From assembly GCF_907163085.1 (NCBI RefSeq), contig NZ_CAJQTX010000001.1:513001-577000 (forward strand): a DNA stretch of 64,000 bases, read 5' to 3'. Source of the DNA: Candidatus Accumulibacter sp. ACC003 (GTDB taxonomy: Bacteria > Pseudomonadota > Gammaproteobacteria > Burkholderiales > Rhodocyclaceae). The position numbers and the translations under genes are program-made. Below, one piece after another: positions 30,911 through 43,537 of this stretch (positions are counted from its first letter, which is position 1; each line of letters opens with the position of its first letter). The notes under the pieces were generated by a model. The model was given only the letters and a program-made list of their open reading frames with translations. It made no database searches and was not told the origin of the DNA.

Positions 30911-31188
30911 GATCGGAGCGAAGCTTTCTCGGGCTTAACTGCAAGTGCACGCTCGGTTGTGCGTGCGATCTGCCGCCGTGCCGAGAGTGCCGAGTGGCTT
31001 CCCCGTGCGGCGCCGGACTTTGGCGCCCCCCACGCTTCTTGCTCCGGCAATCGCCGCGTCGCCTGGCCGGATGTTACGTCCGGCCCTAATCCAGACTCCT
31101 CGGCCCAAGCTTTTCGAGGTTGAAACGATGGCCGAGTCCCATGCTGCAACCGGAAGAGTGATCCCGGCGGCAACGTGGGATGAAGGCC

Positions 31189-31389
31189 CTACCGAGGCGG
31201 CAGCAGCGGCAACCGCCAAGGCTCTTCGGGGTCGTACAGATTCATCTGCCGCTGGTGGTAGCGGCGTAGCTGTACGGCATAGCGGCTTTCGCAAGCGACG
31301 GCGAGTTGGTGAAGGAAGTGGCTGAGCGCGGCCACGCTTTCATCGGAGAGGCCGTCGGGGAATAGCGGCTCGGCAGAGCGGCGCTTCAT
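31189..31389 (-). CDS. 66-residue transposon accessory protein, copy 1
   Basis: Starts MKRRSAEPLFPDGLSDESVA, with the ATG overlapping the ATPase stop as ATGA. It is helical and basic, ending LYDPEEPWRLPLLPPR. The gene is kept in both copies of the transposon at the same place (last gene, near the left end). The two versions differ only in the final residues. Coupled translation and conservation suggest a role in transposition or target choice. No family recognised. Confidence 0.65.
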   Translation of the reverse strand: MKRRSAEPLFPDGLSDESVAALSHFLHQLAVACESRYAVQLRRYHQRQMNLYDPEEPWRLPLLPPR

Positions 31390-32180
31390 CGCAATTCCTC
31401 GATCGCCAACTGCAACAGATCGTCCGGCAAATGATTCAGGCCACGCGGCACCGCCAGGCGCATCGCCGTGCGCAGAATTCGCCCGGCGTGCCGCGGCAAG
31501 CCCTTGCTCGCCTGGCGCACGATCTCCAGGCCCGAATCGCTGAGCAGCGTACTGGTACAACCGGCACTCTTCAAACTGTGCTGGATCAGCTGCGCGAAGC
31601 GCTCGCGTTCGAGCACCGGCTTGAGCTGCACGCGCACCTGAATTCGCCCCGCCAGCGCCGCGTACGGTGCCCGCTCCAGCGTTTGCGCCAGTGTCGGATG
31701 GCCGATCAACCAGACCGCCATCACATCGCGCGTATCGAAGGCGAAGTTGAGGAAGGCCGGCAAATCCCGAAAGAACTCCGGCGGCAGATTCTGCGCCTCA
31801 TCGATGATCCACACCGGCATCAGCTGACGGCTATCGACCAACTGCAGAATCCGCTCCTTCAGATCGCGCCACAGCTGCGCCCGCCGATACCCCGGCTCGA
31901 CGCCCAGCGCCCGTGCCAGACCGCGGTAGATATCCAGCCGACCAAAGTCCGTCTCCGCCTGATAGATCACCTGATAACGATGCGGATTCAGGCCACGGGT
32001 CAATTGGCGCAAGGCCGCCGTCTTGCCCACCCCCGGTTCGCCGGTGATCAGCCCGACCCCGGGCGAGTGCAACAACCAGGCAAAGCGCTCGGCCAACTGT
32101 CCCAGCGTACCGTCATCCCACAGCTCGGCCGCTTGCTTGCCCAGCGGCGGATGCCGCAAACCAAAGTGTTGAAGGTCCAC
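31386..32180 (-). CDS. AAA+ ATPase of transposon (TniB/TnsC/ExeA-like), copy 1
   Basis: A 264-residue ATPase with Walker A GEPGVGKTAA, Walker B VWIIDEAQNL and a sensor region IGHPTLAQTL. GTG start at 32180 after AAGGAG, 1 nt past the transposase stop. In Mu/Tn7-type elements such ATPases bind target DNA, activate the transposase and give target immunity. The protein is identical to copy 2 (36569-37363). Confidence 0.87.
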   Translation of the reverse strand: MDLQHFGLRHPPLGKQAAELWDDGTLGQLAERFAWLLHSPGVGLITGEPGVGKTAALRQLTRGLNPHRYQVIYQAETDFGRLDIYRGLARALGVEPGYRRAQLWRDLKERILQLVDSRQLMPVWIIDEAQNLPPEFFRDLPAFLNFAFDTRDVMAVWLIGHPTLAQTLERAPYAALAGRIQVRVQLKPVLERERFAQLIQHSLKSAGCTSTLLSDSGLEIVRQASKGLPRHAGRILRTAMRLAVPRGLNHLPDDLLQLAIEELR

Positions 32181-32181
32181 C

Positions 32182-33510
32182 TCACTCTCCTTCGGGGTCG
32201 TAGTACTGCTGATAGATCTGCTCGATCAGATTCGGGCCGCTCGTCCCTTTCTGGGGCGGGCTAGCGTCCGCTGGGTCAGGCTGGCGTCGTTGGCGCGTGG
32301 CATTGGCCAGCGCATCGAGTGGCGTCGCCGCACCGATCGATTCCCCTTTCTCGTCCTCGACGCCGATCACCGTCTCGGTATGCGGATCGACCACCAGGGG
32401 CACCGTTTTGCCCGACAGTTCAAAGGGCACCTCGAAGCGTTGTCCCTGATACGATACCGTGCCATCCTTCCTGACCAGTCGCGTGACGCGATGCTGGAAC
32501 AGGGCATCGAGGCTTGCCGCCAACGGCCCCAACGGACGAATCCTGGACAGGTCCTGCTGGTAACGCGCCAACGGCGTCATGCCGGCGAGACCGGCGTGCG
32601 GGCTGCGGTGATAGACCTGTTCAAGCCAGGCCCACAGGCGAGCATTGAGATCGTCCAGGCTGGCGATATGGCGCTCATCGAGTTCGCTGAGAAACTGATC
32701 GCGGCAGCGGCGGTGCCAGCGCTCCAACTTCCCTTTACCCTCGGGCGCGTACGGCCGACAGTGAATCAGATGGATGCCGAGCCGGGCGCAGATCCCTTGC
32801 AGCGTCTCGGCGCGGTAGGCGGCGCCGTTATCGACCACCAGCTTGAGCGGAATGCCGCGTTTGAGCACCGCCTGCTTGAGCACGCCCTCGATGTCCAGGG
32901 CGGTTTCTCCGGGGCAGAAGGCGCTGTGCGTGAGTAGCCGGGAGGCGTCGTCGAAGAGCGACACGAGATAGCTCTTGGCGAGTTTGCCGTCGATCGGCAC
33001 GCGTGGGCCGTGCATCACGTCGCCATACCAGATCGCCCCCGCTGTCGCGGCGACGAAGCTGCGTTTCTCCTCGGGCAGACTGGCCGAGCCGCTGATCCGT
33101 GACAGGCCGTGCTGCTGCAGCAGACGGTGAATGGTCGACCGGGCCAGGCGGCCTCGGGCAACGGTGCCGGTGGCTTCGAGCAATTGTCGAATCTGGCACA
33201 GCGAGCGCCGCGGGTTGTCGCGCTTGGCGGCGAGAATGGCCGCCTGGGTGGCGGCCGGGAGCTTCGATTGCCCGCGGTCGGCGCGCGCCTTGGGCGTCAG
33301 GCCATCAAGCTGGTGGAGGCGCCAGGCGTAGTACCACGCCTGAATCGTCTTCTCGCTCAGATAGCGCCGACGGCTGCCGGGGATGGCGTACTCGCGGCTG
33401 GCCAGCTCCCGGAGGAGCTGTTGCAGTTCGCCACGTTCCAGCCGCTCGCGGCTGATCAGGGGACCGAGAACGGACAGGCGAAACAGGGCTTTCGGATCAA
33501 TCGGGTTCAT
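32182..33510 (-). CDS. DDE transposase (rve plus Mu-type C-terminal barrel), copy 1
   Basis: A 442-residue transposase. Order: N-terminal HTH domains (about 1-130), rve catalytic core and a small beta-barrel like Mu transposase C-domain (VTRLVRKDGTVSYQG). The catalytic triad is Asp in YGDVMHG, Asp in VVDNGAAYR and Glu in GKGKLERW, with 35 residues between the last two (D35E). The start at 33510 is chosen because AGGAG lies 6 nt upstream; an open frame continues to 33576. This copy looks intact. Confidence 0.9.
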   Translation of the reverse strand: MNPIDPKALFRLSVLGPLISRERLERGELQQLLRELASREYAIPGSRRRYLSEKTIQAWYYAWRLHQLDGLTPKARADRGQSKLPAATQAAILAAKRDNPRRSLCQIRQLLEATGTVARGRLARSTIHRLLQQHGLSRISGSASLPEEKRSFVAATAGAIWYGDVMHGPRVPIDGKLAKSYLVSLFDDASRLLTHSAFCPGETALDIEGVLKQAVLKRGIPLKLVVDNGAAYRAETLQGICARLGIHLIHCRPYAPEGKGKLERWHRRCRDQFLSELDERHIASLDDLNARLWAWLEQVYHRSPHAGLAGMTPLARYQQDLSRIRPLGPLAASLDALFQHRVTRLVRKDGTVSYQGQRFEVPFELSGKTVPLVVDPHTETVIGVEDEKGESIGAATPLDALANATRQRRQPDPADASPPQKGTSGPNLIEQIYQQYYDPEGE

Positions 33511-33639
33511 AACCACTCCTGGTGATAAATCGGAGCGGTGATCAAACCAGAACGGCCGTTCTAATGACAGGAGCAAACTGTGTGGGGTCCCCGCCCGGGC
33601 GGGGACCTCACCGTCTGCCGCTCGTTCGGAATCAGTTCA

Positions 33640-34173
33640 TCACGGGACGCTGATCTCCCGATCAAGCCAGGTCATGGCCTGTGCCAGGCCGATCGATTCG
33701 AACACCCGGCGCCAGAAAGCGCTGCCGTCGACCGTCCGCCCGAGGTCGGCAAAGCGAGCACGCAGGTGAAACTCGAACAGCAGGCGGCGCTCCTGGAGCC
33801 AGGCCCACCAGCGACCGGCGGTGCGCCGCTCGGGCGCCGCGCCGGGTGCGCCGGGGCGATCGGGCGCACCGCTCAGCCGCTGTGCCAGGACCGCTTGCTG
33901 CACTGACCAGTCATACCAGCGGCGCGGCGCGATGCACGCCGGCAGACGCGAACACGTGCGCCGACATCCAGAGCAACAGTAGCGGCAGATCGGCACCGGA
34001 TTGAGTGAATCCTGCCCGGCTCGCCGGTCGGCCTTGCGCTCGTAGTGCCCGTGCTGCCAGAGAATCTTCAGGCCGCAATGCGGGCAGCACGGCGGTCGAT
34101 ACGCTTCGGGGGTTTGCTTGATGGCCTCAAGATGCTGCTCGATCGTCTCGATGCCGGCTACAATTCGCTGCAT
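33640..34173 (-). CDS. Zinc-finger protein of transposon (DUF6431-like), copy 1
   Basis: A 177-residue protein. Cys-rich motifs are CCPHCG (about residues 29-34) and RYCCSGCRR, with further Cys near CSRLPAC. The C-terminal half is helical and basic. It is the first gene of the transposon operon. Zinc-ribbon proteins with this CC-x2-CRR pattern accompany this type of transposase (I recall the family as DUF6431). TniQ/TnsD target selectors also use zinc fingers, so a targeting role is a fair guess but unproven. One residue differs from copy 2. Confidence 0.75.
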   Translation of the reverse strand: MQRIVAGIETIEQHLEAIKQTPEAYRPPCCPHCGLKILWQHGHYERKADRRAGQDSLNPVPICRYCCSGCRRTCSRLPACIAPRRWYDWSVQQAVLAQRLSGAPDRPGAPGAAPERRTAGRWWAWLQERRLLFEFHLRARFADLGRTVDGSAFWRRVFESIGLAQAMTWLDREISVP

Positions 34174-34431
34174 GGGCTGGGCGCTTTGCGGTGTGGTTTG
34201 TCTTGATAACTTCCCACGATAGCAGAGTTGTCCCGGCCCTTCTTTCGTTCACTTCGTCCCAACATCCTTCAGGCAGGCCGCCTTCTTTCGCTCTGACCGT
34301 TCTCGGGATGAAGCGCGCCGTCAGACCCGGGAGAGCGGCGGACGTAACACCGGACGAAACGCCTTTCCCTTTGACCTTGTGGTCGGAGCTACCCTGGCGC
34401 CCGGGCATTCATCGGAGTGAGGACGGCGCTA

Positions 34432-34447
34432 TGCGCGCTAGCGTACA
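34432..34447. promoter_or_regulatory. Candidate operator TGCGCG-CTAG-CGTACA
   Basis: Copy of the palindrome with a weaker left half, 219 bp upstream of the collagen-like lipoprotein gene. The 34355-34666 stretch holds no other feature I can support. Confidence 0.4.
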
Positions 34448-34585
34448 GAGCCGACGGCAAAGCACAGTTACTCTGCATGCAAACGGTGGGGCGCAGAATT
34501 GGCGTACTCCTTGCAGCGGTACCCGCAAGGCGGCGACTGATCCGCTGCCGTAGCGGCGATGGCCTGATTTGCCGACGCTGATTGA

Positions 34586-34999
<414 letters not shown>

Positions 35000-35007
35000 G
35001 GGCGCCC

Positions 35008-35041
35008 GGGGCGAGCCATGAACGCGAGTTCACGGCTCGCC
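35008..35041 (+). terminator. Hairpin after collagen-like gene
   Basis: GGCGAGCC-ATGAAC, loop GCGA, GTTCAC-GGCTCGCC: a 14-bp stem with one mismatch starting 9 nt after the stop. No T-tract follows, so termination is likely but not certain. Confidence 0.55.
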
Positions 35042-35092
35042 GCAGCGGTGGAATGGCGACAGACCTGCGATGAAGTCATCCGGCCCGTTGGG

Positions 35093-35250
35093 GCCCAGGC
35101 CATGAACCATTTTCCTGCCGCCGTACTTCTCGTCGATGCTCGACTGCTCCTGGTCGCGCCGTATGCCTCGGACCCTCGCCGCGGTGAGCGACTTGAACGT
35201 GCCCCCTGGGTGACCGGGGACGACGCCAGTTGGGCAAGCCAAGCTATCTG
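35093..35250 (+). pseudogene. Duplicated 5' fragment of the GGDEF-EAL gene
   Basis: The stretch CAGGCCATGAACcATTT and the following codons for AVLLVDA closely match the start region of the gene at 22236 (QAMNNSPTAVLLVDD). After about 15 codons the similarity fades. There is no PAS or GGDEF sequence here. It appears to be a leftover of a partial duplication. Confidence 0.45.
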
Positions 35251-35285
35251 AATCTGTTCCTCGGCCCATGAATCGGAGTTTCAAA

Positions 35286-35708
35286 ATGGAAAATAGATTT
35301 CTCGTGCACGGCCTGGTGATTACGGCGATGACCTTTGGGTCGTTCGTGAGCGATGCCAGAGCGGATGATGGACCCATCGTCCAGCAAGCGGCTGGTTTGC
35401 CCTATGTCTCGGGCGGGGTAGGCGAAGAATCGCTGCAGCGACTCAGGGACCGCGTCAGCGAGTTCAACCTGAAGCTGGTTTTCGCCATGAAGTCGGGAGC
35501 CTACCTGAGCGCCGTGCGGGTTAGCATCGCTGACGCGAAGGGCAAGACGATCCTGGAGGCTATCTCCGATGGACCGTGGTTCCTGGCAAAATTACCAGTG
35601 GGCAAATATCGGGTAATCGCGAGCTACGCTGGCAAGGCGCTCGAGCAGTCGGTTGCCGTCGACGCGACGGCGCTCAAGACGGTCGATTTCCGCTGGGACC
35701 ATGAATAA
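35286..35708 (+). CDS. Periplasmic protein with carboxypeptidase-regulatory-like fold, function unknown
   Basis: A 140-residue protein with signal peptide MENRFLVHGLVITAMTFGSF, cleaved near ARA-DDG. The body from about residue 60 reads as a small beta-sandwich (YLSAVRVSIADAKGKTILEA, LPVGKYRVIASYAGKALEQS), as in carboxypeptidase-regulatory-like domains. The ATG at 35286 is chosen for CGGAG 8 nt upstream. Role unknown. Confidence 0.7.
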   Translation: MENRFLVHGLVITAMTFGSFVSDARADDGPIVQQAAGLPYVSGGVGEESLQRLRDRVSEFNLKLVFAMKSGAYLSAVRVSIADAKGKTILEAISDGPWFLAKLPVGKYRVIASYAGKALEQSVAVDATALKTVDFRWDHE

Positions 35709-35835
35709 CACGGAGCAAGGCCGGTCGCTGCGAGCGGCGGCGCCTCGGACAATGACCGTCAGTGGTGATCGATTTCCGCATCCCCCAATAGTTCGCGGCC
35801 GGTAGACGGAAAACTCAAAATGCATACTCGGATCG

Positions 35836-36254
35836 TCACTTGGCGCGAATGCTGGAGGGGCGCCCATCTGTCTTGGCGTCCTGTGCCGCGACGCCGGATT
35901 TCACACTGCCGTCAGGCATCGGGACCGCGATTGGGGCGACCTCCACCTTGGCCACGCCTTCGTCTTGCGTGATGCCGATCTTCTGCGCCGTGGACGGCGA
36001 GAGATCCACTATCCGCCCATTCACGTGCGGCCCACGGTCTTGAATGGTGACGACCGCGCTCTGCCCGGTGTCGATGTTGGTGACCTTGGCGGTGGTGCCG
36101 AGCGGTAGCGTCTTGCTCGCCGCGTTGCTACCGTGCGGCTTCATTGCGGTGCCGTCCGCCATTTTTTTGCCGGCAAATTTTTTCGCATAGAACGAAGCCT
36201 TACCAACTCGCTTATGGCCCGACCGGTCAAGCTTGGGCTTGGCCAGCGACTTGG
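35836..36254 (-). pseudogene. rlpA-like gene, 3' part (split by transposon copy 2)
   Basis: The minus strand encodes a double-psi beta-barrel region typical of RlpA septal-ring lytic transglycosylases: VGKASFYAKKFAGKKMADGT, LPLGTTAKVTNIDTG, VTIQDRGPHVNGRIVDLSPS. The frame is cut at 36254 by the transposon end. Removing the element and one CTTGG copy joins it in frame (SSRHAK-SLAKPKLD) to the signal-peptide part at 43400-43537. So the gene was intact before insertion. Confidence 0.85.
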
Positions 36255-36371
36255 TGTTACGTCCGGCCCTAATCCAGACTCCTCGGCCCAAGCTTTTCGA
36301 GGTTGAAACGATGGCCGAGTCCCATGCTGCAACCGGAAGAGTGATCCCGGCGGCAGCGTGGGATGAAGGCC

Positions 36372-36572
36372 CTACCGAGGCGGCAGCGGTGGCGTCCGCC
36401 AAGGGGCTTCGGGATCGTACAGATTCATCTGCCGCTGGTGGTAGCGGCGAAGTTGCACGGCATAGCGGCTTTCGCAAGCGACGGCGAGTTGGTGAAGGAA
36501 GTGGCTGAGCGCGGCCACGCTTTCATCGGAGAGGCCGTCGGGGAATAGCGGCTCGGCAGAGCGGCGCTTCAT
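36372..36572 (-). CDS. 66-residue transposon accessory protein, copy 2
   Basis: Same as the copy 1 protein up to LYDPE; the end reads APWRTPPLPPR instead of EPWRLPLLPPR. The ATG overlaps the ATPase stop (ATGA). Confidence 0.62.
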   Translation of the reverse strand: MKRRSAEPLFPDGLSDESVAALSHFLHQLAVACESRYAVQLRRYHQRQMNLYDPEAPWRTPPLPPR

Positions 36573-37363
36573 CGCAATTCCTCGATCGCCAACTGCAACA
36601 GATCGTCCGGCAAATGATTCAGGCCACGCGGCACCGCCAGGCGCATCGCCGTGCGCAGAATTCGCCCGGCGTGCCGCGGCAAGCCCTTGCTCGCCTGGCG
36701 CACGATCTCCAGGCCCGAATCGCTGAGCAGCGTACTGGTACAACCGGCACTCTTCAAACTGTGCTGGATCAGCTGCGCGAAGCGCTCGCGTTCGAGCACC
36801 GGCTTGAGCTGCACGCGCACCTGAATTCGCCCCGCCAGCGCCGCGTACGGCGCCCGCTCCAGCGTTTGCGCCAGTGTCGGATGGCCGATCAACCAGACCG
36901 CCATCACATCGCGTGTATCGAAGGCGAAGTTGAGGAAGGCCGGCAAATCCCGAAAGAACTCCGGCGGCAGATTCTGCGCCTCATCGATGATCCACACCGG
37001 CATCAGCTGACGGCTATCGACCAACTGCAGAATCCGCTCCTTCAGATCGCGCCACAGCTGCGCCCGCCGATACCCCGGCTCGACGCCCAGCGCCCGTGCC
37101 AGACCGCGATAGATATCCAGCCGACCAAAGTCCGTCTCCGCCTGATAGATCACCTGATAACGATGCGGATTCAGGCCACGGGTCAATTGGCGCAAGGCCG
37201 CCGTCTTGCCCACCCCCGGTTCGCCGGTGATCAGCCCGACCCCCGGCGAGTGCAACAACCACGCAAAGCGCTCGGCCAACTGTCCCAGCGTACCGTCATC
37301 CCACAGCTCGGCCGCTTGCTTGCCCAGCGGCGGATGCCGCAAACCAAAGTGTTGAAGGTCCAC
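36569..37363 (-). CDS. AAA+ ATPase of transposon, copy 2
   Basis: 264 residues, identical in sequence to copy 1 at 31386-32180, with silent nucleotide changes only. Walker A GEPGVGKTAA, Walker B VWIIDEAQNL. GTG start. It now lies downstream of a broken transposase gene. Confidence 0.87.
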   Translation of the reverse strand: MDLQHFGLRHPPLGKQAAELWDDGTLGQLAERFAWLLHSPGVGLITGEPGVGKTAALRQLTRGLNPHRYQVIYQAETDFGRLDIYRGLARALGVEPGYRRAQLWRDLKERILQLVDSRQLMPVWIIDEAQNLPPEFFRDLPAFLNFAFDTRDVMAVWLIGHPTLAQTLERAPYAALAGRIQVRVQLKPVLERERFAQLIQHSLKSAGCTSTLLSDSGLEIVRQASKGLPRHAGRILRTAMRLAVPRGLNHLPDDLLQLAIEELR

Positions 37364-37364
37364 C

Positions 37365-38063
37365 TCACTCTCCTTCGGGGTCGTAGTACTGCTGATAGAT
37401 CTGCTCGATCAGATTCGGGCCGCTCGTCCCTTTCTGGGGCGGGCTAGCGTCCGCTGGGTCAGGCTGGCGTCGTTGGCGCGTGGCATTGGCCAGCGCATCG
37501 AGTGGCGTCGCCGCACCGATCGATTCCCCTTTCTCGTCCTCGACGCCGATCACCGTCTCGGTATGCGGATCGACCACCAGAGACACCGTTTTGCCCGACA
37601 GTTCAAAGGGCACCTCGAAGCGTTGTCCCTGATACGATACCGTGCCATCCTTCCTGACCAGTCGCGTGACGCGATGCTGGAACAGGGCATCGAGGCTTGC
37701 CGCCAACGGCCCCAACGGACGAATCCTGGACAGGTCCTGCTGGTAACGCGCCAACGGCGTCATGCCGGCGAGACCGGCGTGCGGGCTGCGGTGATAGACC
37801 TGTTCAAGCCAGGCCCACAGGCGAGCATTGAGATCGTCCAGGCTGGCGATATGGCGCTCATCGAGTTCGCTGAGAAACTGATCGCGGCAGCGGCGGTGCC
37901 AGCGCTCCAACTTCCCTTTGCCCTCGGGCGCGTACGGCCGACAGTGAATCAGATGGATGCCGAGCCGGGCGCAGATCCCTTGCAGCGTCTCGGCGCGGTA
38001 GGCGGCGCCGTTATCGACCACCAGCTTGAGCGGAATGCCGCGTTTGAGCACCGCCTGCTTGAG
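37365..38063 (-). pseudogene. DDE transposase copy 2, 3' part
   Basis: Carries the second Asp (VVDNGAAYR), the Glu (GKGKLERW) and the C-terminal barrel, but is cut at 38063 by the nested element. One residue differs from copy 1 (KTVSLVV against KTVPLVV). The 5' part with the first Asp is at 41925-42560. Confidence 0.9.
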
Positions 38064-38234
38064 TGAGTGTGATCACCCGATTTGATGTTCAGATGTTCAC
38101 CTACGGCGATGGTTGGTAGGGGTGATGGTAGGCGACCCTGGGGCTCCGCCCCAGACCCCGCGCTCGTCGCGAGGCAGCCGCCGGGGATGAACAAGTACTT
38201 CCCCGGCAACTGCTCGCAAGCATCGGGACCCTCC

Positions 38235-38311
38235 AAGGCGTCAAGAGGCTTTCGCGGCATAAACGGGCCGATGAAGCCGGCCCATTTATTCCACGGTCCT
38301 CTTGACGCCTT
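38235..38311. repeat. Inverted repeat in nested element left arm
   Basis: AAGGCGTCAAGAGG at 38235-38248 and its exact complement CCTCTTGACGCCTT at 38298-38311, around a 49-nt loop that holds smaller GGCC pairings. It sits between the element end and its last gene. It may be a terminator-like structure or an insulator. No gene is seen from 38064 to 38412. Confidence 0.6.
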
Positions 38312-38412
38312 TCCTGGTCAAAGAGCCTCCCCTTCTGTCGGCTCGTTCGTCGAAAGGGCCAAGACGACGCCTCCCGAGGGGACTTTCCGTCCGTCGTTCC
38401 TGTCGCCTCTGG

Positions 38413-38679
38413 TCATTCCGTGACGGTCATGAATCCGTACCGCTGACCGAAAGCCAACCATGCCCGTCGGGCTGAAGAACGAGCCGGGTCGGATACCTCC
38501 ACTCGCCCCAGGAGGTCGAGCAGCGCTCGAAGTGGCGCGTCGGTCTCATTGCCGATGGCGTCAATGACCGTTCTTCGGTCGCGCATCCGCTGGGCACGCT
38601 TGCGCTCTCGGTCTGTCATCGCTCGCTCGCCCTGGGGTGGGCGGCCTCTTTTCGTGACGGTCACCAAGGGCTCGGTCAT
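38413..38679 (-). CDS. Small accessory protein of nested transposon
   Basis: An 88-residue protein with a strongly basic N-terminal half (MTDRERKRAQRMRDRRTVID) and a helical C-terminal half ending AWLAFGQRYGFMTVTE. It is the last gene of the nested element, the same place held by the 66-residue gene in the host element. Possibly DNA-binding. No family recognised. Confidence 0.6.
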   Translation of the reverse strand: MTEPLVTVTKRGRPPQGERAMTDRERKRAQRMRDRRTVIDAIGNETDAPLRALLDLLGRVEVSDPARSSARRAWLAFGQRYGFMTVTE

Positions 38680-38836
38680 CTTGTCCTCCTGTTTTTGTGC
38701 CCGTCACGAGAAGAACGGAACGTTCTGCGGTAGCTCCTCCCAAGGTCCGCAGGCGTCGTACCGTCCGAGGCAGCTGTCAAGGGTCGTTGGGCGTGATCGC
38801 ACAACAGCGCGAGCCCGTCGCCTGGCGGGAGGGTCG

Positions 38837-39682
38837 TCACCGGCCGGCCGCCACGCGACGCTGCGCAGGGGTCTCGGGTGACGCGAAGACCTCGAGGTAA
38901 AGTTTCTCGTCGAGTTGCGGCAACTCACGCTGCGCCGCGGCGGCGAGCAGTTCGGCCGCGAGGGTGGTCAGGATGCGGTAGTTACCGGCGGCGTGATCGC
39001 ACAGCGTATGACAGAGCGCGGGGGTCATCAGGCTGGCGTTCCCGGCGCGGCTCAGCAGATGGGTCAGGCAGGCGAGTAACTCGTCACGCGACGCATACTC
39101 GGTGGCGAGGCGGGTACGGATGCGGGAGCCGAGCGGGATCAACTCCTCACGACGCAGCTTCTCGATGAGACGCGCATCGCCGGCCAGCACCACACACAGG
39201 AGCGGCTGCGAATCGAAGCGCGCACTGGCGAGCAGGCGCAACTCGCAAAGAACGGCCGGACTCATCTCCTGCGCCTCATCGACCAGCAACACCACCCGGC
39301 GACGGGTCGTTTCCAGATGCGCGAACCAGACTTCGCGCAGCGCCTTGAAGCCACCCCAGCGGTTATGCGGGCGCAAGGGCACGGTGAAGATGTCGCCCAT
39401 TTCGCGATAGAAATCGGCCAGGTTGCTCTGCGGATGGTTGATCGCGCCGACGGTGACGTCCGACTGACTTCCCAGACGGTCGGCCAGGAGGCGCAAGACC
39501 ACGCTTTTGCCGGTGCCTGGATCGCCGTGGATCATCGCGAAGCCCCCTTCGCGCAGCTGAGCGTGTTCGATTCGCCAGCAGAAGTTCTCGATCCGGGGCG
39601 GAACAAAGAGGGCCTCGATCGGCAATTCAGGGGAGAAGGGATTCCACTTCAGCCCGTAGAGGGCGAGGAGCCGATGGTTCAT
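38837..39682 (-). CDS. AAA+ ATPase of nested transposon (ExeA/TnsC-like)
   Basis: A 281-residue protein: MNHRLLALYGLKWNPFSPEL, typical of ExeA-like ATPases, with Walker A GDPGTGKSVV and Walker B VVLLVDEAQEM. Its start overlaps the transposase stop by 4 nt. It is clearly different from the host element ATPase, yet has the same place in the operon. Confidence 0.87.
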   Translation of the reverse strand: MNHRLLALYGLKWNPFSPELPIEALFVPPRIENFCWRIEHAQLREGGFAMIHGDPGTGKSVVLRLLADRLGSQSDVTVGAINHPQSNLADFYREMGDIFTVPLRPHNRWGGFKALREVWFAHLETTRRRVVLLVDEAQEMSPAVLCELRLLASARFDSQPLLCVVLAGDARLIEKLRREELIPLGSRIRTRLATEYASRDELLACLTHLLSRAGNASLMTPALCHTLCDHAAGNYRILTTLAAELLAAAAQRELPQLDEKLYLEVFASPETPAQRRVAAGR

Positions 39683-41154
39683 GCCGGCTCCTTGTCGGCG
39701 GACGGCAAATACGCAGGCGGCAAGCCCGTCGCAGCGTAGTCAGCGAGCAGCTGGCGCAGCAGCGGCGCGATCCCGGTAGACGGCGGCGCCAGAGCCTCTG
39801 TCGTGACGGGCGCGAGGCGCCGACGCTGACCATCGGCGTTGGCCGACTTGTCGAGCACCTTGACCGGGCAAAGCACGACGCCGGTGCTCGGATCCACGAG
39901 ATCGACGTGCCTGAGGTCCCAGCGGGCGTAGCGTAGATGAACCACCGGCAGGTGCCGATAACTGGCGGGGATCTCGAAGCGTATGCCAGCCAGACTGACC
40001 GTGCCATCGGCACGCCGCTGGCGGCGCGCGACCTCAATCCGGAAGGCGGCCTGCAGCGTGCCAGTATCCGGGCAGTCACGGCGAACACTGGGCCCAGCGA
40101 GATAGCGCGCCAAGGGGGTCGCATCGATCTCGGAATGGAGCGTACGGTGGTACTCTTGTTCGACCCAGGCTTGGCTGGCCTGATTGAGCAGGTCCAGCGT
40201 CAGCAATTTCTCGCCTTCGAGCATCGCCATCAGGCGCCCTTCGATGCGCCCCCAAAACGATTCCTGTTTGGCATTTTGATAGGGCGAATACGGCAAGGTG
40301 GTCTGATGCACGACACCCAGACGGGCGAGGCCGCCGACGGTCTCTTCGGCGAGCATGGCGGCGCCGTTGTCGGTCATCAGGGCTCGTGGCAATCCGCGCT
40401 TCATGAAGGCCTGCGACAAGCCGTGCACGAGACTCTCGGCGGTCTCGTCGAGATACCACTGCAGATGGCAGACCAGCCGGGAGCGATCGTCGATGACGCC
40501 AAACAGCAGCGGCTTGACCCACAGGCCGGTTCGGGTCAGAACCTTGCGTGAGGCGTGATGGAAGTCGAGATGCCAGAGTGCGCCGACATAGTCGACTTCG
40601 TAGCTCCTGACTTCCAGCCGGTCGAGCCGATCCCGGGCCAACAGCGCCCCGGCGGTTGCCCGTTTGGCGGACGCCTGGCGGAACATTCCCCGGGCCTTGA
40701 GATAGCGACGGATCGTCGGATACGACGCCAGGGAAGAGTCGCTCCCGGCCAGGGCGACACGGAGGTTGTCGAAGTGCAGTTGCACCGTCCAGCCCGGATG
40801 CTCGTGGTACTGGGCGGTCAGAATCTGGATGGCCACGGGCGTGATGCTCTTGAACCGACCGACGTTGCTGCGCAGGCGATTCCTGAGAACCGCGACCGGA
40901 TCGGCGGCCGCGCGGGCCGCGTAGTACCAGCGCTCAATTGTCGAGGCGCCAAAGCACACCTCCTGTCCCGATACCGGATGCCGCCAGGACTTGGTCGACA
41001 GGGCGCGCAGCGCCGGGGATAACTCGCCGGCGGCGGGCGGAGCCGCCAGCAAGGGGCCGATGATCGCAAAGCGCAGGCGCGCCCAGCGATCGCGTTTGAG
41101 GGGATCGATGTGAGAGGTCAAAAGGGTCTTCCAGAAGGTCGGTGCCGGCGGCAC
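39679..41154 (-). CDS. DDE transposase of nested transposon
   Basis: A 491-residue rve-type transposase. The triad is Asp in LWHLDFHHA, Asp in LMTDNGAAM and Glu in NAKQESFWG, again with 35 residues between the last two. Downstream, LARYLAGPSV and the barrel GTVSLAGIRFEIPASYRHLP match the C-terminal part of such transposases. Start taken as GTG at 41154; the exact start is uncertain. Frame intact, so the element may be active. Confidence 0.88.
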   Translation of the reverse strand: MPPAPTFWKTLLTSHIDPLKRDRWARLRFAIIGPLLAAPPAAGELSPALRALSTKSWRHPVSGQEVCFGASTIERWYYAARAAADPVAVLRNRLRSNVGRFKSITPVAIQILTAQYHEHPGWTVQLHFDNLRVALAGSDSSLASYPTIRRYLKARGMFRQASAKRATAGALLARDRLDRLEVRSYEVDYVGALWHLDFHHASRKVLTRTGLWVKPLLFGVIDDRSRLVCHLQWYLDETAESLVHGLSQAFMKRGLPRALMTDNGAAMLAEETVGGLARLGVVHQTTLPYSPYQNAKQESFWGRIEGRLMAMLEGEKLLTLDLLNQASQAWVEQEYHRTLHSEIDATPLARYLAGPSVRRDCPDTGTLQAAFRIEVARRQRRADGTVSLAGIRFEIPASYRHLPVVHLRYARWDLRHVDLVDPSTGVVLCPVKVLDKSANADGQRRRLAPVTTEALAPPSTGIAPLLRQLLADYAATGLPPAYLPSADKEPA

Positions 41155-41218
41155 CAGGACGGGAAGTGAAGGCTACAAGCCCTTGAGGAACGGGCCTATC
41201 GACATCTTCTGCGGGTCA

Positions 41219-41839
41219 TCAGCACCCCCCACGCAACGTGCTCGGCCGGACCGTGATCGGCGCCAGAAAGAGGAGGAAATGCCCCATGGCTTCTGTGGCG
41301 TCGCCGACAAAACGTTCCAGCAAACGGCTCGGGAAGTCGTCAGTTACCGGCGGCATGAAGCGCGCACAACACGCTTGCCATAGCGCGGTCAGCGGAAACT
41401 GTTCTTTCCACCACTGACGCCAACGCGCCAGGGTAAGCAACGGAATCGCCAGGGTCATGGAGAGCCGCGCCGCCGCTGGGTTCTGCCCGGCATGCCGGGC
41501 AGAACCCAGCACTACCAGCAGCGCCAGATAGACGCGCCGGCCCAGGAAACGTACGGACATCGACGTCGTCCGACGACGACAAGCGTTGCAGCAGAAGCTG
41601 AACCGCCGAGCAAAGTCGGCACGCGCTTCCGGCGGGCACCCACGGGGCTTTCGCGGATAGTCAGCGCGGTGCAGAACGCCGCCGCACGCACATCCTGCCG
41701 CTCGCGCCTCGTCCGCCAGCTCCGTGTCAACGCGCAGCAACCATCGAAAAAATTGGGGATTTTGCAGGAGGGCATGGCACACTGGAATGGTCTCTTGGCG
41801 TCGAAACCAGAGACTCCCCCAACGGGTGCCTTTGTTCAA
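41219..41839 (-). CDS. Zinc-finger protein of nested transposon
   Basis: A 206-residue protein with Cys pairs in GCACGG and FCCNACRRRTTSMSVRFLGRR. The FCC-x2-CRR core recalls RYCC-x2-CRR in the host element protein, though overall similarity is low. The C-terminal half is helical and hydrophobic (FLGRRVYLALLVVLG). First gene of the nested element. The listed TTG start is uncertain. Likely accessory to transposition or target choice. Confidence 0.6.
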   Translation of the reverse strand: MNKGTRWGSLWFRRQETIPVCHALLQNPQFFRWLLRVDTELADEARAAGCACGGVLHRADYPRKPRGCPPEARADFARRFSFCCNACRRRTTSMSVRFLGRRVYLALLVVLGSARHAGQNPAAARLSMTLAIPLLTLARWRQWWKEQFPLTALWQACCARFMPPVTDDFPSRLLERFVGDATEAMGHFLLFLAPITVRPSTLRGGC

Positions 41840-41924
41840 GTCCCCTGAGGGGGGTCACCCCCTCAACATCACTCTGCTTGACCCGTCAGGCAGCAAATTC
41901 CATCACGATTGGTGACCGTGCTCA

Positions 41925-42560
41925 CTTGAGCACGCCCTCGATGTCCAGGGCGGTTTCTCCGGGGCAGAAGGCGCTGTGCGTGAGTAGCCGGGAGGCGTCG
42001 TCGAAGAGCGACACGAGATAGCTCTTGGCGAGTTTGCCGTCGATCGGCACGCGTGGGCCGTGCATCACGTCGCCATACCAGATCGCCCCCGCTGTCGCGG
42101 CGACGAAGCTGCGTTTCTCCTCGGGCAGACTGGCCGAGCCGCTGATCCGTGACAGGCCGTGCTGCTGCAGCAGACGGTGAATGGTCGACCGGGCCAGGCG
42201 GCCTCGGGCAACGGTGCCGGTGGCTTCGAGCAATTGTCGAATCTGGCACAGCGAGCGCCGCGGGTTGTCGCGCTTGGCGGCGAGAATGGCCGCCTGGGTG
42301 GCGGCCGGGAGCTTCGATTGCCCGCGGTCGGCGCGCGCCTTGGGCGTCAGGCCATCAAGCTGGTGGAGGCGCCAGGCGTAGTACCACGCCTGAATCGTCT
42401 TCTCGCTCAGATAGCGCCGACGGCTGCCGGGGATGGCGTACTCGCGGCTGGCCAGCTCCCGGAGGAGCTGTTGCAGTTCGCCACGTTCCAGCCGCTCGCG
42501 GCTGATCAGGGGACCGAGAACGGACAGGCGAAACAGGGCTTTCGGATCAATCGGGTTCAT
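41925..42560 (-). pseudogene. DDE transposase copy 2, 5' part
   Basis: N-terminal HTH region and first catalytic Asp (YGDVMHG) of the copy 2 transposase, cut by the nested element at 41925. Start ATG at 42560 with AGGAG upstream, as in copy 1. The sequence continues at 37365-38063. Confidence 0.9.
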
Positions 42561-42689
42561 AACCACTCCTGGTGATAAATCGGAGCGGTGATCAAACCAG
42601 AACGGCCGTTCTAATGACAGGAGCAAACTGTGTGGGGTCCCCGCCCGGGCGGGGACCTCACCGTCTGCCGCTCGTTCGGAATCAGTTCA

Positions 42690-43223
42690 TCACGGGACGC
42701 TGATCTCCCGATCAAGCCAGGTCATGGCCTGTGCCAGGCCGATCGATTCGAACACCCGGCGCCAGAAAGCGCTGCCGTCGACCGTCCGCCCGAGGTCGGC
42801 AAAGCGAGCACGCAGGTGAAACTCGAACAGCAGGCGGCGCTCCTGGAGCCAGGCCCACCAGCGACCGGCGGTGCGCCGCTCGGGCGCCGCGCCGGGTGCG
42901 CCGGGGCGATCGGGCGCACCGCTCAGCCGCTGTGCCAGGACCGCTTGCTGCACTGACCAGTCATACCAGCGGCGCGGCGCGATGCACGCCGGCAGACGCG
43001 AACACGTGCGCCGACATCCAGCGCAACAGTAGCGGCAGATCGGCACCGGATTGAGTGAATCCTGCCCGGCTCGCCGGTCGGCCTTGCGCTCGTAGTGCCC
43101 GTGCTGCCAGAGAATCTTCAGGCCGCAATGCGGGCAGCACGGCGGGCGATACGCTTCGGGGGTTTGCTTGATGGCCTCAAGATGCTGCTCGATCGTCTCG
43201 ATGCCGGCTACAATTCGCTGCAT
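42690..43223 (-). CDS. Zinc-finger protein of transposon (DUF6431-like), copy 2
   Basis: 177 residues, same as copy 1 except RYCCAGC for RYCCSGC. The frame is intact and lies upstream of the split transposase gene. Confidence 0.75.
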   Translation of the reverse strand: MQRIVAGIETIEQHLEAIKQTPEAYRPPCCPHCGLKILWQHGHYERKADRRAGQDSLNPVPICRYCCAGCRRTCSRLPACIAPRRWYDWSVQQAVLAQRLSGAPDRPGAPGAAPERRTAGRWWAWLQERRLLFEFHLRARFADLGRTVDGSAFWRRVFESIGLAQAMTWLDREISVP

Positions 43224-43399
43224 GGGCTGGGCGCTTTGCTGTGTGGTTTGTCTTGATAACTTCCCACGATAGCAGAGTTGTCCCGGCCCTTCTTTCGTTC
43301 ACTTCGTCCCAACATCCTTCAGGCAGGCCGCCTTCTTTCGCTCTGACCGTTCTCGGGATGAAGCGCGCCGTCAGACCCGGGAGAGCGGCGGACGTAACA

Positions 43400-43537
43400 C
43401 TTGGCATGCCGTGACGAAACCGTTTCCTGCGGTGCCGTACTGCCGACGGCATGTGCATGGGGTGTGAACACCATCGCGCCGACGCTACAGATCATCACAA
43501 ACATGGACAGTCGATTGAATCTGGAGATCTTCCGCAC
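43400..43537 (-). pseudogene. rlpA-like gene, 5' part
   Basis: GTG start at 43537 after GGAGAA. It encodes VRKISRFNRLSMFVMICSVG and a signal-peptide region ending AHAV-GSTAPQ, then SSRHAK at the transposon junction. Joined with 35836-36254 it gives an intact RlpA-like protein. From 43538 to 43800 I see no gene. Confidence 0.75.

Follow-up and report, generated by a model that had tools for sequence, protein, structure and literature searches.

Two closely spaced insertions in the genome of Candidatus Accumulibacter sp. ACC003 raise the question of which kind of transposon they represent and whether this kind has already been named. They lie in a 64,000-nucleotide stretch of contig NZ_CAJQTX010000001.1 (positions 513,001 to 577,000), referred to here as the window, and the first-pass annotation described them as two recent copies of a compact Tn7-like system with four genes, possibly a distinct and poorly described branch. 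The element belongs to a kind that has not been categorised, for which Tn6049 is the sole name found. It is quite likely an autonomous four-gene transposon of this kind, where a DDE transposase and a TnsC/MuB-like ATPase would act without a site-specific selector, together with an end-binding or regulatory zinc finger and a small accessory factor, and where transposition is probably replicative.

Both copies were confirmed by their coordinates and by direct reading of the ends, having 3278 bp each once the 3861-bp insert of copy B and one 6-bp duplication are removed. The terminal sequence TGTTACGTCCG, of the TGT...ACA type, is exact at all four ends (31072, 34349, 36255 and 43399), and a search of the window allowing one mismatch or none gave five matches, against 0.55 expected from shuffles. 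The 5-bp duplications, CCGGA for copy A and CTTGG for copy B, are both perfect, as annotated. All four genes, encoding a zinc-finger protein, a DDE transposase, an ATPase and a 66-residue protein, are open in copy A, and the nested insert splits the transposase of copy B. As the four genes fill copy A, there is no room for a further gene such as TniQ or resolvase, and the gene content of this copy agrees with a self-contained element lacking TnsA, TniQ and resolvase.

The same gene set is carried by Tn6049 from Cupriavidus metallidurans CH34, found also in Pseudomonas aeruginosa pHS87a, with the zinc-finger gene (annotated as 'transposase'), the DDE gene (annotated as IS481), the AAA gene and a gene for 71 amino acids in the same order and on the same strand. 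The zinc fingers (profile E 1.2e-7) and the small proteins (profile E 1.5e-10) of both elements are homologous, as are the ATPases, linked through Tn6049-type relatives; in addition, the small protein of a Paraburkholderia element of the Tn6049 type shares 53% identity over 55 residues with one from the outer clade. The transposase of a C. campinensis element shows 100% identity with its counterpart on CH34 pMOL30, and the ends and 4-bp repeat of this element agree with Tn6049 as printed in a portion of PMC4739549. According to a section of PMC2864759, Tn6049 occurs in 12 copies of 3.5 kb with an ATPase called 'gspA', and a passage of PMC6210171 states that the Tn6049 module "could not be categorized".

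Regarding the distribution of the element, relatives were collected by scanning genome_contigs (84,980 species), which gave 334 candidate stretches, 273 of them confirmed, and the best 80 were kept; one viral contig was added, from 31 viral candidates that included two relatives, resulting in 81 loci. Their labels are mainly Pseudomonadota, with a few Chloroflexi, Verrucomicrobia, Flavobacterium and Acidobacteria, some of them on contigs of 3-6 kb that may be misbinned. The set is retained in most of these loci: where there is room, the zinc-finger gene is present in 70 of 72 and the ATPase in 72 of 75, and the 10 relatives having both ends and a duplication are 3278-3564 bp long. BLAST detects the small gene in only 39 of the 73 loci with room, which weakens the case for a constant fourth gene, although this low recovery is explained by its fast sequence divergence; of the 69 loci where the ATPase frame and a following open reading frame (ORF) were found, 61 have an ORF of at least 60 codons whose start precedes the ATPase stop by exactly 4 bp. 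In two Acidobacteria loci, the zinc-finger gene, transposase and ATPase are followed by another ORF, about 340 codons long, in place of the small gene, which we take to resemble a RepA-type ATPase.

The transposase was annotated as a D35E enzyme with a Mu-type barrel, and both features are sustained by its relatives. The catalytic residues D164, D227 and E263 are the same in all seven relatives compared, D227 and E263 being separated by 35 residues, and PF09299 (Mu C-terminal) is matched at E<=0.01 in five of seven members (best 1.4e-5), the window protein's own match being under the Pfam cut-off. The ATPase, called TnsC/TniB-like, resembles TnsC in the fold of its structural model, but it has no TniB match in Pfam, nor one to PF01695 (IstB_IS21), at E<=0.1. 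Orc/Cdc6 proteins fit the model equally well as TnsC, which counts against a specifically TnsC-like assignment; the 50 listed matches of the model contain no IstB chain, which excludes nothing. A search for subterminal arrays of transposase sites gave only one 12/14 direct repeat, at the zinc-finger end, and a few cross matches of 11-12/14, as raw counts, and such arrays were discarded as a feature.

The position of the transposase was studied in a tree of 43 rows and 274 columns, obtained from a 49-row set after L130 (wrong ORF), L103 and L118 were removed along with two IS3 rows with frameshifts and one member of a near-identical IS21 pair; Pandoraea did not enter either. The window transposase falls in its own 13-row clade with 99/98 support, outside a separate clade (98/93) of Mu, Tn7, Tn402, Tn552 and four similar rows; this support covers the clade and not the joining of groups. 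In this tree it groups neither with the IS21 pair (100/100) nor with the IS481 and IS3 rows, which lie elsewhere, and the transposases of Tn6049 and of the nested element form a 100/100 pair apart from it. MuA, TnsB, IS30 and others have long branches. Approximately unbiased (AU) tests were applied to a 16-row group, comprising the 13-row clade, two Acidobacteria rows and G027 (group support 93/87), and gave p values of 0.285 for one clade with Tn6049, which is thereby not rejected, 0.536 with Mu/Tn7, 0.0835 with IS481 and IS3, and 0.142 with IS21. The suggested distinct branch stands in part, having its own clade within an uncategorised kind, but the kind itself was already named through Tn6049, which shares the gene set with a transposase only 30% identical to that of the window over 444 aligned columns and is uncategorised in print.

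These results bear on two other origins. It is improbable that the element is a reduced Tn7-like or Tn5053-like transposon that lost TnsA, TniQ or resolvase: its ATPase has a TnsC-like fold and the AU test does not reject a sister position of the transposase to the Mu/Tn7/Tn402/Tn552 group, but the transposase lies outside that supported clade, against the Tn7-like membership first assigned, and the 10 complete relatives have no room for such genes, a result that does not cover three longer copies of the host genome, whose filling was not read. Likewise, when 46 zinc-finger proteins were compared with Pfam at E<=1, TniQ was absent from the 25 families listed out of 36, each unlisted family matching at most one member, and a TniQ-like nature of the zinc-finger protein was rejected. 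Moreover, the stability of the gene set in many lineages makes recent loss unlikely. An aberrant IS481 family insertion sequence with acquired accessory genes also seems rather unlikely, even though IS481 is the best NCBIfam match of the window transposase (189.4 bits), the Tn6049 transposase is publicly annotated as IS481 and the ends begin with TGT. That score is under the curated cut-off of 224 bits, the transposase is not nested in the IS481 rows of the tree, and a joint clade of the 16-row group with IS481 and IS3 is 9.2 log units worse, an arrangement that the AU test does not reject. Known IS481 elements encode a single protein, and the window element possesses an ATPase and a Mu-type C-terminal domain.

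Considering the Tn6049-type element as a working transposon, the DDE transposase would bind the TGT...ACA ends, nick the 3' strands and carry out a staggered strand transfer, mostly of 5 bp, while the AAA+ ATPase would assemble on target DNA and activate the transposase without a site-specific selector. The zinc-ribbon/helix-turn-helix (HTH) protein may be a detached DNA-binding subunit, probably acting in end binding or operon regulation, and the small protein may be a translationally coupled accessory factor, probably connecting the complex with host replication proteins. Transposition is probably replicative, since there is neither TnsA nor resolvase, with the host resolving the products; copy-out/paste-in, or cut-and-paste with host nucleases, are possible routes that count against it. 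These biochemical roles and the replicative pathway are what we infer, beyond the gene set, ends, duplications, loose targeting, conservation and Tn6049 homology demonstrated here.

The loose targeting is seen in the copies of the host genome (5.39 Mb, 13 contigs) and of the relatives. There are 27 transposase matches at E<=0.001, including fragments and distant kin, together with 12 zinc-finger genes of the window type and 11 small-protein genes, and this indicates an amplified family rather than two copies; the genome carries about a dozen copies. Ten of them were examined without filtering, and a duplication was found in eight (5 bp in seven, 7 bp in one); the unmatched flanks of the other two speak against regular target duplication. 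Together with relatives, which were preselected because a locus was admitted only with a repeat found (27 of 81), 34 copies were counted, with duplications of 5 bp in 25, 6 bp in five, 7 bp in one, 8 bp in one and none in two. L151 (weak ends) and L143 and L149 (flank identical to L137) were omitted from the target-site count, and a plasmid relative (L070) has a 4-bp duplication. Compiled as the first-pass annotation had proposed, the 25 five-bp sites show C at position 2 in 15, T at position 3 in 12, G at position 4 in 18 and G at position 5 in 13, a weak symmetric CCWGG lean with no fixed sequence and no attachment site seen among them. With 25 columns considered, the 95% level of 0.45 bits is exceeded only by G at position 4, at 0.71 bits.

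The zinc-finger protein had been proposed as a target selector, and its gene is indeed kept nearly throughout the loci and its domains predict DNA binding. This role has little chance of being right, because the insertions are scattered and share no common site, the strongest preference being that single G. The window protein consists of DUF6431 and an HTH, DUF6431 being its sole Pfam match at E<=1; its whole structural model gave no Foldseek match in the PDB at E<=0.001, and DUF6431 was found in the literature only in an annotation table for Ruminococcus gnavus.

Several further observations concern the copies in the genome. Two pairs of copies are only 2-3 kb apart (window 31072-43399 and G000:C1:697820-708960), which would not suggest strong target immunity. 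Three copies are longer (5196, 5700 and 9911 bp). A minisatellite with a period of about 263 bp at G000:C1:300681-302200 has units holding TGTTACGTCCGCCGC and about 20 bases like the zinc-finger end of the element, possibly amplified from such an end. Single ends at G000:C4:611524 (TGTTACGTCCGGCCC) and C4:160944 (TGTTACGTCCGCCGC), whose resemblance to the element is soon lost, are either solo ends or parts of other elements.

The fourth gene is real and under purifying selection, as its ratio of nonsynonymous to synonymous substitution rates (dN/dS) against five relatives is 0.13-0.32, and dN exceeds dS in a shifted frame in all three comparisons tried. The core of the protein is approximately LSDExxxxLxxFLxxLxxxxExxYxxQxRRY. 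Among 54 distinct small proteins, 25 end in PF (0.24 expected from shuffles, largest 3), 28 end in F (2.6 expected, largest 8), and 17 contain Qxx[LIM][FY] (2.7 expected, largest 9), four of these 17 as QL[SD]LF. The seven residues before the last hold 2.36 acidic residues in those ending in F against 0.5 in the others. When clustered at 50% identity with the last 8 residues removed, F ends predominate in 11 of 19 clusters and six show a clamp-like motif; at 40% identity, only four clusters remain, three with F ends. The best-scoring single-stranded DNA-binding protein (SSB) of the host ends in DDDIPF. The acidic tip of SSB recruits at least 17 partners, as stated in a part of PMC10018359, and QLxLF is described in a part of PMC4549789 as the clamp motif of many transposases.

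An alignment-based search of 229 genomes found the family in five others, two beside Tn6049-type genes and three beside IstB-type ATPases. Among the five distinct proteins, four have a PF terminus, a result only partly independent because the model includes some tail columns, and PF ends occur in two of the three IstB-adjacent families. We propose that the small protein may be a replisome adaptor. More precisely, and as a somewhat doubtful suggestion, it could be a third component common to AAA+-dependent DDE transposons (the window type, the Tn6049 type and some IS21 types), a coupled helical adaptor whose C-terminus would mimic the SSB acidic tip, or carry a beta-clamp motif in the window lineage, and bring host proteins of replication restart, or those bound to the clamp, to the strand-transfer complex. 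It seems quite possible, instead, that the PF tip and the QxxL[FY] motif have their binding partner within the element, in its ATPase or transposase, as the gene is translationally coupled to the ATPase, the window-type proteins lack the tip, and Mu and Tn7 transposases have ATPase-binding tails. Nevertheless, the same family with a similar tip also adjoins IstB, a different ATPase type, which favours a common host partner and makes it an attractive reading of these sequences.

Several points weigh against the replisome adaptor. The C-terminus of the window protein and its closest relatives is PPR, PPP or PHR, these proteins carry QMNLY instead of the consensus clamp motif, and the residue before PF is other than I or L in most tips. 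The shuffle tests are inflated by the kinship of the sequences, and the 88-aa ORF of the nested element does not match the family. No replication-orientation bias was seen overall: local GC skew is positive for 12 of the 28 copies whose flanks are long enough (p 0.57), and with 20-kb flanks in the own genome seven of 12 are co-directional (p 0.77), several sharing flanks. In genome G427, where the small gene lies beside an IstB gene, seven of eight copies run against the inferred fork (p 0.07, a hand count from strands and sampled skew). The eight ORF copies with the small-protein core in this genome (L255-L262) are identical over the printed stretch, with an IstB-type neighbour in the one copy read (L255). 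The literature search found no paper on the SSB tip and transposition, nor on a third ORF of IS21.

Table 1. Positions in the window of the two element copies, their genes and the insert nested in copy B.
Feature	Position	Strand	Size	Remarks
Copy A	31072..34349	-	3278 bp	CCGGA at 31067-31071 and 34350-34354
Zinc-ribbon and HTH protein, copy A	33640..34173	-	177 aa	DUF6431
DDE transposase, copy A	32182..33510	-	442 aa	HTH, rve, weak Mu C-terminal barrel
AAA+ ATPase, copy A	31386..32180	-	264 aa	AAA_22; TnsC/Orc-like model
Small protein, copy A	31189..31389	-	66 aa	start overlaps ATPase stop by 4 bp
Copy B	36255..43399	-	7145 bp with insert	CTTGG at 36250-36254 and 43400-43404
Zinc-finger gene, copy B	42690..43223	-		
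Transposase 5' part, copy B	41925..42560	-		from second repeat of insert duplication
Transposase 3' part, copy B	37365..38063	-		up to insert
ATPase gene, copy B	36569..37363	-		
Small-protein gene, copy B	36372..36572	-		
Nested Tn6049-type element	38064..41924	-	3861 bp	ends TGAGTGTGATCACC / TGAGCACGGTCACC; CTTGAG at 38058-38063 and 41925-41930
Nested zinc-finger protein	41219..41839	-	206 aa	no Pfam match
Nested DDE transposase	39679..41154	-	491 aa	63% identity to Tn6049 transposase
Nested AAA+ ATPase	38837..39682	-	281 aa	
Nested ORF in small-gene position	38413..38679	-	88 aa	no convincing similarity to small-protein family

The insert in copy B is a diverged relative of the window element, with zinc-finger, transposase and ATPase genes of the same types, and the identity of its transposase to that of Tn6049 therefore means that two branches of one kind are present in the window, one nested in the other. 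Between copies A and B, a short lipoprotein-like ORF has collagen-like G-x-T repeats (34616-34999), and the ORF at 35836-36477, interrupted at its 5' end by copy B, presumably resembles an RlpA-type double-psi barrel protein.

Compared with Tn6049 (3516 bp, ends TGTGCATAAGC/TGTGCGTGAGC and a 4-bp duplication), the window element is shorter, has mostly 5-bp duplications and a transposase that forms a separate clade in the tree, and the two nevertheless belong to one four-gene group that brings a named but unclassified transposon together with a widespread clade lacking a name. The element shares with Tn7, CAST and Mu the core of a DDE transposase with a Mu-type C-terminal domain and a TnsC/MuB-like AAA+ ATPase; however, copy A lacks TnsA, TniQ/TnsD, TnsE and Cas, and its transposase lies outside their supported clade. 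Such a small system, predicted to be AAA+-dependent and without a selector, may represent a simple ground state from which Tn7/CAST-type machinery can be understood, and its unstudied small protein could explain how the strand-transfer product is handed over to host replication. The combination of DDE and ATPase is also found in Tn552, Tn402 and Tn5053, and Tn402 has TGT ends and a 5-bp repeat like the window element, as given in a portion of PMC4739549, but copy A has neither resolvase nor TniQ, its transposase is outside their clade and its ATPase has no TniB match in Pfam at E<=0.1. The two-component logic of IstA-IstB in IS21 is similar, with the small-protein family downstream of IstB-type genes in three genomes; meanwhile, the window ATPase matches AAA_22 and not IstB_IS21 at E<=0.1, there is an additional zinc-finger gene, and the transposase stands apart from the IS21 pair. 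Finally, IS481 offers the closest curated transposase model and TGT ends, and differs in the sub-threshold score, the tree position and the additional genes of the window element, whose nearest named counterpart is Tn6049.

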